NCBI RefSeq assembly: GCF_017893965.1 | Contig: NZ_CP054142.1 | Location: 2,594,288-2,658,287 of the forward strand | Length of the DNA: 64,000 nt | Source of the DNA: Treponema parvum | GTDB lineage: Bacteria; Spirochaetota; Spirochaetia; Treponematales; Treponemataceae | Reading direction: 5' to 3' | Shown: positions 36,447 through 44,885 of the stretch, piece after piece | Position numbering within the stretch: position 1 is the stretch's first letter | How the letters are laid out: each line of letters starts with the position of its first letter | The notes under the pieces: model-generated | Told to the model about the DNA's origin: nothing | Databases searched by the model: none | The model's input: the letters and a program-made list of their open reading frames with translations, nothing else | Translations under genes and position numbers: made by a program

Positions 36447-37727
36447 TCACATTCGGTCGATAGGGCTTTGAACGCCGAGACCGCCGCGGTTGAGGACGTG
36501 GGTGTAAACCATAGTGGTTGAAACATCGCTGTGACCGAGAAGTTCTTGGATGGTGCGGATATCGTAACCGGATTCCAGTAGATGTGTTGCAAATGAGTGG
36601 CGGAACGTGTGGCAGCCGATCGGTTTCGGAATACCCGACCGTAAAACAGCTTCATGCAGGGTGCGCTGAATAACCGAAGGATCAATATGGTACCGCCCCT
36701 GCTCGCCTGTCTTATTATTTTGCCATCGGCGTACTTGGGGAAACACCCACTGCCATGCCCAAGTTTTACCGGCATTGGGATATTTTTTCGCAAGGGCAGA
36801 CGGCAGCGACACTAAACCGAAACCGTCTTTGCAGTCTACCTCATGGATGCGGCGAACATTTTCCAAATGTTTTTGCAGCGGAAATTTCAGAGATACCGGC
36901 AGCATCGTTTTACGGTCTTTTGCGCCCTTTCCGCAGTGTACCGTAATTTCATTTTTATCAAAATCAATATCTTGTACCCGTAATTGCAAGCCTTCCATCA
37001 GCCTCATTCCCGTTCCATAGAGCAAGCGGATACAAAGACCGTAATCATTATCTGGTAAAAGCGAAAATATCTTTGCCGTTTCCTCACGGCTCAATACAAC
37101 GGGCAACTTTTGAGACTTTTTAGCACGGATGATATTCTCGGGACTTTGTATAGTTAAGCCTAATATGTTTTTATACAGAAACAAAAGAGCGGCAAGGGCT
37201 TGATTTTGACTTGAAGCGGCAACCTTTTCTTTTATTGCAAGACGGCTCACAAAGGAATTTATCTCTGCAGCGGAAAATGTTTTAAAATTTTTATTTTGAT
37301 GTTCTCGTATAAAGCGACTTATCCAATAGCTGTATGCTTCCCGTGTACGTTTGCTGTAGTGTTTTGCAGTAATCACTGCATCCAGTTTTCTTAAAATATC
37401 CTGAATATCCGATGCAGTAGGCAGATTACTTTCCTCAATCATTCCTGTATTCAAGCCTATAGCATCATGAGGATCGCTATCAGCGCCTTCACAAATTTTC
37501 TCGATAAAATCGGAATCCGCACGGCAAAAACCCTCACTATAAATACTATTCAATAAAATATCACAAGAATTACGATCAGCGGGGATAGTCCAAATGCACC
37601 GATCCGGAACCCAAGCTCTGTTTGGTACTTTTTTTATCGCTTGCAAGATTTTAGAAAAATCTTCTCTGCCTGCTTTAAAACGTACCGCTAAAGTTTCTTG
37701 TTCATAAGGCTTAATTTCAATAAACAT
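36447..37727 (-). CDS. intI: Integron integrase with an extra N-terminal domain
   Basis: The 426-residue tyrosine recombinase has the catalytic residues Arg (GTGMRLMEGLQLR), Lys (GAKDRKTML), HxxR (HTFRHSFATHLL), His (LGHSDVSTT) and Tyr (MVYTHVL). The IntI-specific insertion that recognises attC is present: KKYPNAGKTWAWQWVFPQ matches KYPRAGHSWPWFWVFAQ of IntI1. Residues 1-90 form an additional domain (VPNRAWVPDRCIWTIPADR) resembling HARP-like N-termini of some recombinases; class 1 IntI lacks it. The gene points toward the cassettes, as in Treponema denticola. AGGAGG lies 5 bases before the ATG. Confidence 0.95.
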   Translation of the reverse strand: MFIEIKPYEQETLAVRFKAGREDFSKILQAIKKVPNRAWVPDRCIWTIPADRNSCDILLNSIYSEGFCRADSDFIEKICEGADSDPHDAIGLNTGMIEESNLPTASDIQDILRKLDAVITAKHYSKRTREAYSYWISRFIREHQNKNFKTFSAAEINSFVSRLAIKEKVAASSQNQALAALLFLYKNILGLTIQSPENIIRAKKSQKLPVVLSREETAKIFSLLPDNDYGLCIRLLYGTGMRLMEGLQLRVQDIDFDKNEITVHCGKGAKDRKTMLPVSLKFPLQKHLENVRRIHEVDCKDGFGLVSLPSALAKKYPNAGKTWAWQWVFPQVRRWQNNKTGEQGRYHIDPSVIQRTLHEAVLRSGIPKPIGCHTFRHSFATHLLESGYDIRTIQELLGHSDVSTTMVYTHVLNRGGLGVQSPIDRM

Positions 37728-38569: not shown

Positions 38570-38833
38570 CTATTTATCATCATAATGATTTTTGCATTGA
38601 ATAATTTTTATGAGTCCATCCTCTATTTTATATACAGGTCTGTTTTTCTCGTCTATTGTCCGTGACCAATATCCGCTTAAATTTTCTTTTAATGGTTCAG
38701 GATGTCCTATGCCGTCATTGCCGTTTCGTTCAATATCAGTAAGCAGTCGATTAATTTTCTTCAGCGTTTTTTTGTCTTGCATTATCCAATATGTATAATC
38801 CGACCATGCATCATCTGAAAAATCCTTATGCAC
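38570..38833 (-). CDS. yoeB: YoeB/Txe-family mRNA interferase toxin
   Basis: The 87-residue RelE-fold toxin has the YoeB pattern GHPEPLKENLSGYWSRTIDEKNR, with the catalytic Glu, Arg and the C-terminal His-Tyr pair in CKNHYDD. It should cleave mRNA at the ribosome A site. The start is GTG, directly after the antitoxin stop. It appears intact. Confidence 0.93.
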   Translation of the reverse strand: MHKDFSDDAWSDYTYWIMQDKKTLKKINRLLTDIERNGNDGIGHPEPLKENLSGYWSRTIDEKNRPVYKIEDGLIKIIQCKNHYDDK

Positions 38834-38835
38834 TT

Positions 38836-39093
38836 TTATGCCTCAACAAGTTCATGTATTGAATGCTGCCCGTTTTCCATTTGTTTTTTCGAATGTTCCA
38901 ATGCTTTCATATTTTTTTCAGAATAAAAAGAGTCGTCTTGAATAATTTCAAACGGAATTTTACGCTGAATTAAGGTTTGTTTCAAAAATATACGTATTGC
39001 CGTAGTCGTATCCATTCCGATAGACTCAAAAAATGCATCTGCATCATTTTTTAGAGCTGCATCAACTCTTGTTTGAACTACTGCTGTTTTCAT
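38836..39093 (-). CDS. relB: RelB/DinJ-family antitoxin
   Basis: About 85 residues. The N-terminal ribbon-helix-helix reads KTAVVQTRVDAALKNDADAFFESIGMDTTTAIRIFL, typical of RelB/DinJ, and the C-terminal tail (about 55-85) should wrap around the toxin. The start is the Met after GAGG; the longer frame from a TTG near 39213 crosses a repeat and has no ribosome binding site. It should repress its own operon. The pairing of a DinJ-type antitoxin with a YoeB-type toxin is common. Confidence 0.92.
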   Translation of the reverse strand: MKTAVVQTRVDAALKNDADAFFESIGMDTTTAIRIFLKQTLIQRKIPFEIIQDDSFYSEKNMKALEHSKKQMENGQHSIHELVEA

Positions 39094-39170
39094 ATGAACC
39101 TCCATGTTTATAATATAATACAAAAGTAATGAAAAAGCAATGTGTTTTATTGACTGAGCAATATACAATC

Positions 39171-39260
39171 CTAAAAGCTCGACCGCGGCATGTACTACGA
39201 GTTTGTAGAGCAAACTCGTAGTGAGGCGAAGCCAAACGACGTTCTCGCCGAAAGCAAAGC
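39171..39260. repeat. Dispersed intergenic repeat B, copy 1
   Basis: A 19-bp block (CTAAAAGCTCGACCGCGGC) is found inverted at 54960-54978, and GTTCTCGCCGAAAG nearby also matches 54936-54949 inverted. Between them a perfect hairpin ACGAGTTTG-loop-CAAACTCGT occurs. The element occupies most of the 250 bp before carA. Confidence 0.6.
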
Positions 39261-39342: not shown

Positions 39343-40662
39343 ATGAGTATTAGAGCCTGTATTGTACTTGAAAACGGACAAGTTTTTGAAGGAAAAAGTT
39401 TCGGCGCTTCCGGCTGCGTGACAGGCGAAGCGGTTTTTACAACGGGAATGACCGGATACATTGAAACGCTTTCCGATCCCAGCTACTACGGTCAAATCGT
39501 CATGCAGACTTTTCCTTTAATCGGAAATTACGGTTTGATTCGGCAGGATTTTGAAAGCTCGCGGCCTCACTTGAGAGGATACGTCGTTCGCTCGTATTGT
39601 GATTCTCCTTCCAATTTCCGAAGCCAGGGTTCTATAGATTCTTTTTTAAAATCAAATAACATTGTAGGCTTGTACGACATTGATACCCGCGCGCTCACAA
39701 AAATTTTAAGAGAAGCGGGCGTCATGAACGCCATGTTAATTTCAGGCGATTCTCCGGAGGCAAAAAAGGAATTCGACGCCCTCGATATTCCGGAAGAAAA
39801 GAAAAAACTGCTTGAAAAAATCCGCGCTCACAAAATTGAAAAAGCCGTCGAATCGGTAAGCTGCGACGCCGTTAAAATCGAAGATCCTGCGGACATTGTG
39901 TTCGCCGAAGCCGCAAAATATCGTGCGCTTCCCGTAACAAAAGACGGACTTAAAATAAACGACGCTTCAATAGCCATGAAAAACGGAAAAAATAAAAAAG
40001 TCGTTCTCTGGGATTTCGGCGCAAAAGCCAATATCCGACGGGAGCTTTTAAAACGCGGAGTTTCCGTTATTTCCGTTCCGTCAAAATCCACCGCAAAAGA
40101 AATTATCGATCTTAAGCCGGACGGATTGATGCTTTCAAACGGCCCCGGAGATCCTAAGGATAATCAAGAAATCATCGACCAGCTTAAAAAACTGTGTGAA
40201 AAACGTATTCCCGTTTTCGGTATCTGTTTGGGACACCAAATCCTTGCCCTTGCCCGCGGAGCTAAAACTTCAAAGTTAAAATACGGACACCGCGGATCAA
40301 ATCATCCGGTAAAAGATCTTTCAACCGGCCGCGTTTATATTTCAAGCCAAAATCACGGCTATGCCGTAGAAAACGCTTCTTTGCCTAAAGGTGCCTTACT
40401 GAGTTTTGCAAATACAAACGACGGAACGTGCGAAGGGATTACCTATACCGATATTCCCGCTTTTTCCGTTCAATTTCATCCGGAAGCTGCCGGAGGTCCC
40501 TTGGATACGAATTTCTTATTTGACGAATTTATTTCTCTTATAAACAATCCCGATCATTTTAAGAATTTTAAAACGCCTTACGCCCTCATCGATTCAATTT
40601 CATATTTTGCCGACGCTATAAAAGAAAACGCTCGTATATCCGAACAATCCGGGAGTCTTTAA
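39343..40662 (+). CDS. carA: Carbamoyl-phosphate synthase small subunit
   Basis: The 439-residue glutaminase subunit supplies ammonia for carbamoyl phosphate. The N-terminal CPSase domain starts RACIVLENGQVFEGKSFGA. The class I amidotransferase domain has the nucleophile Cys in GICLGHQ and the His-Glu pair in FHPEA. It is about 60 residues longer than usual, mainly through a charged insert around residues 165-220 between the two domains and a C-terminal tail. The stop and the carB start share one base (TAATG). Confidence 0.95.
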   Translation: MSIRACIVLENGQVFEGKSFGASGCVTGEAVFTTGMTGYIETLSDPSYYGQIVMQTFPLIGNYGLIRQDFESSRPHLRGYVVRSYCDSPSNFRSQGSIDSFLKSNNIVGLYDIDTRALTKILREAGVMNAMLISGDSPEAKKEFDALDIPEEKKKLLEKIRAHKIEKAVESVSCDAVKIEDPADIVFAEAAKYRALPVTKDGLKINDASIAMKNGKNKKVVLWDFGAKANIRRELLKRGVSVISVPSKSTAKEIIDLKPDGLMLSNGPGDPKDNQEIIDQLKKLCEKRIPVFGICLGHQILALARGAKTSKLKYGHRGSNHPVKDLSTGRVYISSQNHGYAVENASLPKGALLSFANTNDGTCEGITYTDIPAFSVQFHPEAAGGPLDTNFLFDEFISLINNPDHFKNFKTPYALIDSISYFADAIKENARISEQSGSL

Positions 40663-43600
40663 TGCCGCTAAACACATCAATAAAAAAGATTATGGTCATA
40701 GGTTCCGGCCCCATCGTCATAGGACAGGCTGCGGAATTCGATTATGCAGGAACACAGGCTTGCAAGGTTTTAAAAGAACAGGGCATAAACGTAGTTTTGG
40801 TAAATTCAAATCCGGCAACCCTCATGACCGACCATTCCATGGCGGATTCAATTTACATAGAACCTCTGATACCTGAAACCGTCAAGCGCATAATTGAAAA
40901 AGAAAAGCCCGACAGCCTGCTTTCAACGCTCGGCGGACAGACAGGGCTCACTTTAAGCATGGAATTGGCAAAGTCCGGATTTTTAAAAGAACACAACGTA
41001 CGACTGCTCGGAGCGAATCCCGAAACTATAGACAAGGCCGAAGACCGCCAGATGTTCAAAGACACCATGCTTTCCATCGGAGAGCCTTGCATCCCTTCCA
41101 AAGTGGTCACAACCCTCGAAGGAGCTTTGGATTTTGCCGATAACGAAATCGGATATCCGGTGATCGTAAGACCTGCGTTTACCTTAGGCGGAACGGGCGG
41201 AGGAATAGCAAACGACCGCAAAGAACTGGAAGAAATCGCACACAACGGTCTTCATCGCTCTCCCATACATCAAATTTTAGTTGAAAAATGCATCTCCGGC
41301 TGGAAAGAAATAGAATTTGAAGTCATACGGGATCATTCGGGCAATGTCATAACCGTCTGTTCCATGGAAAACTTCGATCCTGTAGGAATTCACACGGGAG
41401 ATTCCATCGTAGTAGCGCCGGCCGTCACTCTGGCGGACAAAGAATATCAAATGTTGCGTTCTTCCGCGCTGAATATAATTTCAGCTCTCAAGATCGAAGG
41501 CGGTTGTAACTGTCAGTTCGCCCTAAAACCCGATTCTTTTGAATATGCAGTTATAGAAGTAAATCCCCGCGTTTCAAGGTCTTCGGCTCTTGCGTCAAAA
41601 GCGACTGGATATCCTATAGCAAAAGTCGCAACCCTCATCGCAATCGGGTACAATTTGGACGAAATTCCTAACGCCGTCACTCAAAAAACGGCGGCATGTT
41701 TCGAACCGGTAGTGGATTACATTGTCGTAAAATTCCCGAAATGGCCGTTCGATAAATTCGTCTATGCCAAAAGAACCTTAGGCACTCAGATGAAGGCGAC
41801 CGGAGAAGTAATGTCGATCGGCCGCTCTTTCGAAGAAGCCTTGATGAAAGCCGTCCGCGGGGCGGAAATAGGCGTTTTTTCTTTGCGCCTAAAAGCTTTT
41901 TCCCAAGAAACCGACGAGCAAATAAAAAAAAGAGTCGGTGAAATAACGGATTTACGCATCTTTGCCGTTTACGAGGCCCTGAGACGCAAAATCTTATCTG
42001 TAAGACAGATAAGTGAAATTACAAAGATAGACGCATGGTTTATTTCCAAGTTGGAAAATATAGCAGCCCTTGAAGATGAACTTGAAAGCGTAAAAAACAA
42101 AAATTCGACGCTTTCAAACGAACTTTATTTAAAAGCAAAAAAATCAGGCTTTCCGGACAAGGTGATAGAATCTTTGTCGAAAGTGAAAATTCCAGGCGGC
42201 TCGGGAATTTTACAAGACTCCAAAGCGGCGGAAAAACTGCGGAAAGAAGGCAAGCTGGCGCACATTCCCGCAACATATAAAATGGTCGACACCTGCGCCG
42301 GAGAATTCAACGCGGAAACTCCGTATTTTTACGCAGGCTACGACGAGCAAAACGAAGCCGCCGAATTCCTTAAAAACAGGAAAAATACGGAAAGCAAAAA
42401 AGGTACTATTATTGTTTTAGGTTCCGGCCCTATAAGGATCGGTCAGGGAATAGAATTCGACTACGCCTCCGTTCAATGCGTTTGGTCGCTGAAAAAACTG
42501 GGCTATGAAGTAGCGATTATAAACAATAACCCCGAAACCGTTTCTACCGATTTCGACACTGCCGACAGGCTTTATTTCGAACCTCTTACGCCGGAAGACG
42601 TTATGAACGTGATACACACGGAAAAGCCCTTCGGGGTTGTCGTCGCCTTCGGCGGACAAACCGCAATAAAACTTACAAAATTTCTTGATAGGCAGGGAAT
42701 TAAAATTCTGGGAACCAGCGCCGATTCGATAGACATTGCCGAAGACCGCGAACGTTTTGAACAGCTTTGTGAAAAACTAAAGATAAACAGACCCAAAGGA
42801 GAAACCGTTTTTACGACCGAACAGGCTCTTCTTTCGGCGGAACGGATAGGATATCCGGTTTTACTTCGCCCTTCATATGTTCTCGGCGGACAGAACATGA
42901 TCATCGCCTTTACACCGGCGGACATAAAAGAGTACATGTCCATTATACTCGCTCAAGAAATTGAAAACCCTGTTTTAATAGACAAATACATGATGGGTAC
43001 GGAACTTGAAGTCGACGCTATCTGTGACGGAAAAGACATTCTTATTCCGGGAATAATGGAACACATAGAAAGGACGGGCATTCATTCCGGAGATTCCATA
43101 GCCGTTTATCCTTCTTGGAACTTAAACGATATTCTCCGTGAAAAAATCATAAATCAATCCCGCGAACTCGCTCTCGCCCTTAAAACGCGGGGCCTTATCA
43201 ATATTCAGTACCTGGTTTACAACAATTCTCTTTACATCATAGAAGTAAATCCCCGTTCAAGCCGTACTGTTCCCTACATCAGCAAAGTCACGGGCGTTCC
43301 CATGGTAGAACTTGCCACACAGGCCATGCTGGGTAAAAGCATAAAAGAAATGGGCTACGGCAAAGGACTTTATAAAATTCCTCCGTATTTCGCTGTAAAA
43401 GTTCCCGTATTCAGCTTTGAAAAACTCATGGATGTGGATACCCACTTGGGCCCGGAAATGAAATCTACGGGAGAAGTTTTAGGCTTGGCTTCCACTATGG
43501 AAGAAGCAATTTTTAAGGGACTCATCGCAGCCGGCTACAAAATGAAAAGAGGCGGCGGGGTTCTGTTTACTGTACGCAAAACCGATCAATACGAAATTCC

Positions 43601-44885
43601 CGATCTGGCGCGCAAATTTTACGACATGGGCTTTACCCTATATGCAACGGAAGGAACCGCAAAGGTTATACGCGATTTCGGAATGGAAGTGATAACCGTA
43701 AACAAGATTCATGAAAATTCCGAAAATAATTTTCTTACACTTTTGGATTCGGAAAAGATCGACTACGTCGTTTCCACAAGCGCAAAGGGACGAAATCCGG
43801 CCGCCGACAGCGTAAAAATGCGAAGGCACGCCATAGAGCGCGATATTCCGTGTCTGACATCCATAGACACCGCCAACGCCATTGCCAATTGCCTTATGAG
43901 CCATTATTCGGCCGAAAACGTAGAACTTGTAAACATAAACGACTTAAGATCTTCAAAACAAAAAATAAGATTCAGCAAGATGCACAGCACAGGTAACGAT
44001 TTTATCGTCATCAACGCGATGGCTCAGGTAATCAACAATCCCGCCGGTCTGAGCGTAAGACTTTGCAACCGCCGCACGGGAATAGGAGCGGATTCTTTAG
44101 TCCTCATAGAAAGGAGCGATAAGGCCGACGCTTACATGAAATTTTTTAACCAGGACGGCTCCGAAGGAAGGCTTGCGGGAAACGCAATACGCAGCGTGGC
44201 AAAGTATCTTTTCGACAACAACATAAACGGTATTGCCGCGCGGCATGCGCTCGTTACGGATCCTACGGCGACGATAACCATAGAAACAGCGAGCGGAATA
44301 AAATCTTTGGTTTTATACAAACAAAACGGAAAAATATCGTCCGTAACCGTAGATATGGGAAAACCGGAATTTTCACCGGATTCTTTACCGACAACGCTGA
44401 AAGACGCGCCGTTTTCTCCTCCGTCAAACGAAACCCAGAATAATCCACTTTTGCCCAAGAGGGCCGTCGTCAACGAAAGCCTTTTTGTAGGCGATGAAAA
44501 GTATAAAGTTTCCTGTGTTTCCGTAGGAGTTCCTCACTGCGTGGTTTTTTGCGACTTCGTCGATAAGGTAGACATTTTTAAAGTCGGCCCCTTGTTTGAA
44601 AACAACAAAGCCTTCCCGCAGAGGGTAAACACCGAATTTGTGCGCGTCGCAGGCCCGAACGAATTAAAAATGCGTACATGGGAAAGAGGAAACGGCGAAA
44701 CCCCAGCCTGCGGAACGGGAGCCTGCGCGGCGGTCGTAGCGGCCGTTCTTAACGGATACTGCAAATTAAACGAAAATATTACGGTAAAAGTTCGCGGCGG
44801 CGAATTGATAGTAAAATACACGGGAAAGACTGTCTTCCTTACGGGCGCGACGGAACTGGTATACGAAGGCAACGTAGAAATTTAA
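40662..44885 (+). CDS. carB: Fusion protein: carbamoyl-phosphate synthase large subunit (CarB) + diaminopimelate epimerase-like domain
   Basis: One uninterrupted 1407-codon frame. Residues 1 to about 1090 are a complete CarB: first ATP-grasp half with the GSGPIVIGQAAEFDY opening, oligomerisation region with about 25 extra residues, second half from GSGPIRIGQGIEFDY (about 580) and the MGS-like allosteric domain (about 960-1080). After a short linker a DapF-type domain begins at FSKMHSTGNDFIVIN (about 1103). It keeps GIGADSLVLI and the second catalytic Cys (ACGTGAC, about 1350), but the first active-site motif reads GRLAGNAIRS instead of CGNG-RC, with Ala at the Cys position (about 1172). An extra 25-40 residues lie near 1245-1285. 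The CarB part should be active; the epimerase part is doubtful. Confidence 0.95.
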   Translation: MPLNTSIKKIMVIGSGPIVIGQAAEFDYAGTQACKVLKEQGINVVLVNSNPATLMTDHSMADSIYIEPLIPETVKRIIEKEKPDSLLSTLGGQTGLTLSMELAKSGFLKEHNVRLLGANPETIDKAEDRQMFKDTMLSIGEPCIPSKVVTTLEGALDFADNEIGYPVIVRPAFTLGGTGGGIANDRKELEEIAHNGLHRSPIHQILVEKCISGWKEIEFEVIRDHSGNVITVCSMENFDPVGIHTGDSIVVAPAVTLADKEYQMLRSSALNIISALKIEGGCNCQFALKPDSFEYAVIEVNPRVSRSSALASKATGYPIAKVATLIAIGYNLDEIPNAVTQKTAACFEPVVDYIVVKFPKWPFDKFVYAKRTLGTQMKATGEVMSIGRSFEEALMKAVRGAEIGVFSLRLKAFSQETDEQIKKRVGEITDLRIFAVYEALRRKILSVRQISEITKIDAWFISKLENIAALEDELESVKNKNSTLSNELYLKAKKSGFPDKVIESLSKVKIPGGSGILQDSKAAEKLRKEGKLAHIPATYKMVDTCAGEFNAETPYFYAGYDEQNEAAEFLKNRKNTESKKGTIIVLGSGPIRIGQGIEFDYASVQCVWSLKKLGYEVAIINNNPETVSTDFDTADRLYFEPLTPEDVMNVIHTEKPFGVVVAFGGQTAIKLTKFLDRQGIKILGTSADSIDIAEDRERFEQLCEKLKINRPKGETVFTTEQALLSAERIGYPVLLRPSYVLGGQNMIIAFTPADIKEYMSIILAQEIENPVLIDKYMMGTELEVDAICDGKDILIPGIMEHIERTGIHSGDSIAVYPSWNLNDILREKIINQSRELALALKTRGLINIQYLVYNNSLYIIEVNPRSSRTVPYISKVTGVPMVELATQAMLGKSIKEMGYGKGLYKIPPYFAVKVPVFSFEKLMDVDTHLGPEMKSTGEVLGLASTMEEAIFKGLIAAGYKMKRGGGVLFTVRKTDQYEIPDLARKFYDMGFTLYATEGTAKVIRDFGMEVITVNKIHENSENNFLTLLDSEKIDYVVSTSAKGRNPAADSVKMRRHAIERDIPCLTSIDTANAIANCLMSHYSAENVELVNINDLRSSKQKIRFSKMHSTGNDFIVINAMAQVINNPAGLSVRLCNRRTGIGADSLVLIERSDKADAYMKFFNQDGSEGRLAGNAIRSVAKYLFDNNINGIAARHALVTDPTATITIETASGIKSLVLYKQNGKISSVTVDMGKPEFSPDSLPTTLKDAPFSPPSNETQNNPLLPKRAVVNESLFVGDEKYKVSCVSVGVPHCVVFCDFVDKVDIFKVGPLFENNKAFPQRVNTEFVRVAGPNELKMRTWERGNGETPACGTGACAAVVAAVLNGYCKLNENITVKVRGGELIVKYTGKTVFLTGATELVYEGNVEI

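Follow-up and report, generated by a model that had tools for sequence, protein, structure and literature searches.

In a 64,000-nucleotide stretch of Treponema parvum DNA (contig NZ_CP054142.1, positions 2,594,288 to 2,658,287; hereafter the window), CarB, the large subunit of carbamoyl-phosphate synthase (CPSase), continues directly into a domain with the fold of the diaminopimelate (DAP) epimerase DapF, and alanine takes the place of that domain's first catalytic cysteine. The carB-dapF fusion gene lies at 40662..44885 on the plus strand, as do all features below unless marked otherwise, and comprises 1407 codons and a stop without an internal stop codon. Its first base is the last base of carA (39343..40662) among the open reading frames (ORFs) of the window; carA encodes a CPSase small subunit of 439 residues (TIGR01368, 444 bits, cut-off 307). 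Residues 1-1081 (40662..43904) form the CarB part, with two ATP-grasp units, an oligomerisation domain (residues 425-505) and an MGS allosteric domain (980-1066); they match NF003671 of NCBIfam at 1464.5 bits (cut-off 599), and the profile TIGR01369 is met over its full length at 1436.7 bits (cut-off 1027). A linker, residues 1082-1101 (43905..43964), ranks among the least confident stretches of the predicted structure and leads into the DapF-type domain, residues 1102-1407 (43965..44882), an entire two-lobed DapF fold that matches TIGR00652 of NCBIfam over residues 1102-1405 (246.7 bits, cut-off 114.65) and Pfam DAP_epimerase PF01678 at 159.4 bits. The ORF and the profile matches thus confirm the single uninterrupted frame described in an earlier note on this DNA; the linker it reported is present as well, but is nearer 20 residues than the 10-15 it had given.

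The cysteine replacement claimed in that note holds both by codon and by alignment. Codon 1172 is GCG (Ala; 44175..44177) in EGRLAGNAIRSVA, at the place of Cys73 of the Haemophilus influenzae enzyme and Cys83 of the Corynebacterium glutamicum enzyme, and the motif LAGNAIRS aligns onto SCGNGLRC of the Bacillus anthracis DapF structure 2OTN. The second catalytic cysteine (Cys217/Cys221) is retained, as the note had also said, at codon 1350 (TGC; 44709..44711). According to the C. glutamicum structure paper (PMC5296763), C83A and C221A each abolish nearly all activity of that enzyme, so alanine at the first place should abolish ordinary epimerisation. A domain lacking this tested, defining feature of a DAP epimerase is therefore not classed as one here.

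The remainder of the pocket is almost constant. Using as a pocket set the 12 catalytic and binding residues named in PMC5296763, we find 10 of them canonical in all 39 distinct treponemal fusions; the Cys73 place is Ala in every one and the Asn157 place varies, with Asn in 64%. The window domain itself retains N11, N64, G74, N75, N190, E208, R209, G218 and T219, and has Val1290 (44529..44531) at the place of Asn157/Asn159; the same paper describes Asn159 as required for activity and as holding the far carboxylate of DAP. Across the 39 treponemal fusions, 11 of 12 pocket columns are invariant versus 82 of 312 columns overall (P = 2.3e-6, an indicative value given the relatedness of the rows). 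When treponemal domains are compared with the two-cysteine clostridial ones, just six columns show each group fixed, at 95% or more, for a different residue: Cys gives way to Ala at 1172 and Gly to Ser at 1145, and the remaining four are 1114, 1235, 1237 and 1377. Residue 1145 (44094..44096) is Ser in every treponemal fusion tallied and Gly in each clostridial fusion and each standalone DapF of the tally, and its place is one that we take to be that of Gln44, a substrate-contact site of H. influenzae DapF. The standalone group in this comparison was taken without L140 and L142, which sit on long branches; both retain the two cysteines, and the profile identifies L140 as a DapF (259.6 bits).

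A decaying pseudodomain, which the earlier note had entertained, is rejected in view of the near-invariant pocket columns and of purifying selection on the DapF domain, whose ratio of nonsynonymous to synonymous substitution rates (dN/dS) is 0.122 between the window and its nearest relative, G354; the corresponding values are 0.119 for L037/L042 and 0.014 for a clostridial pair with Ser at the first place (L088/L091). Relative to CarB, the DapF domain evolves at a rate of 2.12 in Treponema, 1.62 in two-cysteine Clostridia and 1.70 in cysteine-lost Clostridia. The CarB part agrees with Escherichia coli CarB at 15 of 16 catalytic and tunnel residues and differs from it at 4 of 7 ornithine-site and 5 of 10 nucleotide-effector residues; these differences would fit a changed effector input and prove nothing.

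Distribution and history of the fusion

The fusion is widespread. In a search of long proteins, 5588 of 7990 candidates scored were matches and the best 120 were all fusions; every fused protein read (121 of 121) bears the motif AGNAIR followed by A, C or S, has Ala where the first cysteine would stand and keeps the second one; this count consists of the best 120 matches plus the query, includes the window protein twice and contains many near copies. The 39 distinct treponemal fusions that we aligned give the same answer, 39 of 39. The genome G354 carries the same fusion with 96% identity to the window in the DapF domain, and this, with the 121 proteins, rules out a sequencing error or frameshift. 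The possibility raised earlier that close relatives might lack the fusion did not materialise: of 274 genomes of the family to which the window's organism belongs, 109 have a DapF domain of the fused type, 31 have a standalone DapF, in 124 none was found and 10 are unresolved. These counts, like those for dapB, lysA-like genes and Ddh below, come from a hand-transcribed table and hold among the matches listed; a fused-type call means a match to the window domain of at least 55% identity, and genomes with weak matches make up the unresolved class. Of the 109 fused-type matches, 92 lie in an open frame of 1200 codons or more and the other 17 in shorter ones. Nor is the fusion a lone oddity of Treponema, since it also occurs in many Clostridia: with the fused window protein as query, 12 of the best 80 loci are titled Treponema or Spirochaetaceae and 68 are others, titled Clostridia, Ruminococcus, Oscillospiraceae and similar, one of the 68 being titled Bacteroides. 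Plain clostridial CarBs fall outside a sample drawn in this way. The locus titled Bacteroides sp., L112, is a cysteine-lost fusion of clostridial type in a metagenome-assembled genome (MAG) that is probably a mislabelled bin.

Beyond what the earlier note had seen, then, the fusion also exists in Clostridia, there mostly with both cysteines, and cysteines have been lost several times. Both are present in 54 of 67 clostridial fusions and at least one is lost in 13, with Ser (6), Ala (4) or Gly (2) at the first place; L094, one of the Ser cases, lacks the second cysteine too, and L095 has Ser at the second place only. Among standalone DapFs (20 treponemal, 11 clostridial), no cysteine loss was found in 31. 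The best DapF tree implies at least eight changes of the first cysteine and the best CarB tree seven changes of a catalytic cysteine, each tree having many weak branches. A single branch of the DapF tree, with support 78, separates the treponemal fusions from the rest, so one loss suffices for Treponema, and on the CarB tree the treponemal fusions, L167 excepted, form one clade together with the domain-free treponemal CarBs. The latter, eight plain and four split in the 12 loci read, are a single clade nested among the fused proteins, and the domain was thus probably lost once there; the eight whole ones stop at the linker, and a tblastn search for DapF-domain remnants in six domain-free carB loci gave no match at E 1.

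The two-cysteine clostridial fusions are very probably working DAP epimerases, to judge from their genomic setting. The fused domain is the only DapF in 22 of 27 two-cysteine clostridial genomes, and 11 of the 27 have neither a second DapF nor Ddh. At 29 of 51 two-cysteine loci, dapL, the gene for the enzyme that makes the substrate of DapF, is found no more than 2.5 kb downstream. The latter is true of 0 of 11 cysteine-lost and 0 of 11 treponemal loci (P = 0.00045 for two-cysteine versus cysteine-lost clostridial loci), loci that were too short (four two-cysteine, two cysteine-lost, no treponemal) being left aside; for L043 and L060, dapL matches TIGR03542 at 507 and 544 bits. A second DapF or Ddh is present in 13 of 13 cysteine-lost versus 16 of 27 two-cysteine clostridial genomes (Fisher P = 0.0074), a comparison that covers 40 of 68 clostridial genomes, mostly MAGs, namely all 13 cysteine-lost ones and 27 picked by eye. 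Both associations of cysteine loss run in the expected direction. We infer a carA-carB-dapF-dapL cluster as the probable setting in which the fusion came about. At L093, the fusion gene is immediately followed by another complete DapF frame with two cysteines, which looks like a local duplication of dapF. Lysine/DAP and carbamoyl-phosphate genes adjoin in E. coli as well, where dapB is directly upstream of carAB (L171). On the far side of carA in the window itself are an integron integrase (36447-37727, minus strand; TIGR02249, 484 bits, cut-off 265), about 1.6 kb upstream, and a YoeB-type toxin with a RelB/DinJ antitoxin (38570-39213, minus strand), just upstream and divergent.

The lysine route and the proposed role of the fused domain

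The earlier note had ornithine rather than DAP in the peptidoglycan of Treponema, and PMC6721243 describes this for T. phagedenis. The window's own genome nevertheless has the whole LL-DAP route to lysine, which makes DAP chemistry relevant even if the peptidoglycan uses ornithine. In that genome lysC and dapB are present, dapA, asd and lysA stand in one row (lysA at 286 bits, 12 under its cut-off), and dapL, which adjoins a gene with an Asp/Glu racemase domain, is of the TIGR03542 kind (534 bits); TIGR03540 proved to be the wrong model for it. A search of the genome for the second, complete dapF that the earlier note wished to see checked returned none, and one for Ddh none either. Directly upstream of the dapA-asd-lysA row is a pyridoxal phosphate (PLP) protein (L175:7811-8920, minus strand) that weakly resembles 3-hydroxy-D-aspartate aldolase (91.8 bits, cut-off 690) and may belong to an adjoining transporter operon.

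Treponemes with a standalone dapF, which belongs to another lineage than the fused domain on the DapF tree, can have it with dapL next to carA and divergent from it (L153, L155 and L159; dapL of L153, 576 bits), and 29 of the 31 standalone-dapF genomes of the family also have Ddh, which in some, such as G273, is found beside a second, higher-scoring lysA. A further 31 family genomes at least 90% complete that possess dapB and a lysA-like gene, for example G116, G121, G236, G284 and G346, gave no match for DapF or for Ddh at the thresholds applied, absence of DapF meaning no match to the window domain; among the matches listed, 10 of these 31 are empty by PF01678 too. G116 has the same dapA-asd-lysA row plus dapL, and the Treponema clade that shed the domain retains its lysine genes. 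In such genomes the lysine pathway seems to run without the fused domain; their DAP epimerase step is unfilled, unless LysA accepts LL-DAP. For other bacteria, PMC9026213 proposes that a PLP-dependent enzyme stands in for DapF.

With pocket and fusion retained and the first base gone, the most plausible reading is a domain that binds a ligand and serves CPSase in regulation or assembly. Our confidence that the fused domain, likely no two-base epimerase any longer, has this predicted role stands at about an even chance, and the earlier note's suggestion of a CarB regulator is in this sense taken up as our favoured prediction. On this reading the pocket likely binds a diamino acid and would regulate or scaffold CPSase. 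Its history may have begun with carA, carB, dapF and dapL as neighbours in a Clostridia-like lineage, where a working two-cysteine epimerase would have become fused to CarB; once DAP epimerisation was supplied otherwise or unneeded, the first cysteine would have been free to go, CarB having meanwhile come to depend on the domain. DAP, ornithine or lysine might then occupy the pocket, and binding or dimerisation might alter CPSase activity. It is a more tentative step, and one we think more likely wrong than right, to see the retired epimerase as an effector domain that reads the level of one of these diamino acids and sets the supply of carbamoyl phosphate.

Several observations weigh against a regulatory or assembly domain, and some of them lend weight to a serious rival, namely that the domain is still the organism's own DAP epimerase, the two proton transfers being shared between Cys1350 and a newly recruited group such as water or the invariant Ser1145. 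Since lysC, asd, dapA, dapB, dapL and lysA are all present in the genome without another DapF or Ddh, DAP must be epimerised by the fused domain or else by an unrecognised enzyme, and the simplest filler of the gap would be the fused domain itself. Among the fusion genomes at least 90% complete, 58 of 61 lack Ddh and 61 of 61 have dapB and a lysA-like gene (a second DapF was not checked genome by genome). The clostridial rule that the cysteine is lost only where there is another source of meso-DAP fails in Treponema for the known enzymes. Cys1350 and the catalytic sub-site are invariant, which goes beyond the needs of a mere binding pocket, and Ser1145 is, beside Ala1172, one of only six columns fixed differently. 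The rate ratio of 2.12 against 1.62 leaves room for mild relaxation in Treponema, and L167, a treponemal fusion on a long branch, is placed among Clostridia by the CarB tree with a support of 82. A single genome switched would move the plain Fisher test to 0.063, and when kinship is controlled, the association of cysteine loss with a second meso-DAP source and that with dapL adjacency each come down to three independent pairs on firm branches and are not significant. For all this we regard a one-cysteine epimerase as unlikely, because the same C83A replacement nearly abolishes the activity of the C. glutamicum enzyme (PMC5296763), the residue at the Asn159 place, needed there, is Val here, clostridial fusions were seen to lose a cysteine only beside another meso-DAP source (13 of 13), and 31 near-complete family genomes with dapB and a lysA-like gene gave no DapF or Ddh match at those thresholds.

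Two further explanations would keep the fusion without DAP epimerisation. The domain's bulk or dimer contact may simply have become necessary for CarB folding or assembly, with no role for a ligand. Most of the domain-free CarBs read (L149-L157, L159 and L160) do lack CarB residues ~475-532 of the oligomerisation region, and in several domain-free genomes CarB is split near its middle into two genes that lie apart or inverted. Yet the domain-free L152 retains the whole oligomerisation region and the fused L108 and L167 lack the ~475-532 stretch, the loss of the domain was a clean one, at the linker, and a scaffold needs no substrate pocket, whereas the pocket columns are among the most invariant; we accordingly hold such passive entrenchment to be improbable. 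Least probable in our estimation is that the domain, coupled to CarB, catalyses a different reaction on some other amino acid, as a racemase, a lyase or a one-base isomerase. The superfamily is rich in such shifts, as the structural matches of the fused domain attest (proline racemase, 3-hydroxyproline dehydratase, PhzF, O-ureidoserine racemase and histidine racemase), and the catalytic sub-site is kept while the far-side Asn157 is partly lost. However, retention of N64, N190 and R209 on the far side favours a DAP-like ligand, and no neighbouring pathway suggests a substrate: in 10 loci read by eye, carA was upstream in nine and no further gene was constant.

If the treponemal fusions do carry an effector domain of this kind, the synthesis of pyrimidines and arginine would be tied to precursors of the cell wall and of lysine, and an epimerase would have been retired in like manner several times among the clostridial fused proteins. 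Two-cysteine, one-cysteine and domain-free CarBs offer a natural series for a direct test of how an enzyme turns into a domain with a regulatory or structural role. There is also a practical side: the few named proteins among the best 120 matches bear the CarB name only, so metabolic reconstructions may miss the DAP epimerase in many Clostridia or credit one to Treponema, and many treponemes are left with an unfilled DAP epimerase step.

Comparison with known systems

No description of a CarB-DapF fusion was found in the open-licence literature, a body of text that most subscription papers lie outside, and to that extent the earlier note's remark on this holds. As a CarB (TIGR01369), the window protein is complete and has its partner CarA encoded directly upstream, and it departs from the type in carrying ~325 extra residues past the CarB part. 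As a DapF (TIGR00652; H. influenzae, C. glutamicum, B. anthracis, E. coli), the domain has the full fold, the profile score, the second cysteine, the catalytic sub-site and most recognition residues, but it has Ala for the first cysteine, Val at the Asn157 place and Ser for Gly at 1145, and it forms the C-terminal part of CarB. The two-cysteine clostridial CarB-DapF proteins of Ruminococcus, Oscillospiraceae and others are the nearest relatives of the treponemal fusions in the sample and share their domain order; unlike them, they keep both cysteines and are often encoded beside dapL. A precedent for regulation comes from E. coli, where DapF stimulates another enzyme, RppH, with no need of its two cysteines: according to PMC4227774, DapF(C73&217A) still binds and stimulates RppH. 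By analogy, this shows that a DapF fold can regulate without catalysis, with the difference that DapF is there a separate and still active epimerase and its partner an RNA pyrophosphohydrolase, whereas in Treponema the candidate regulator would be a covalent part of the CPSase itself.

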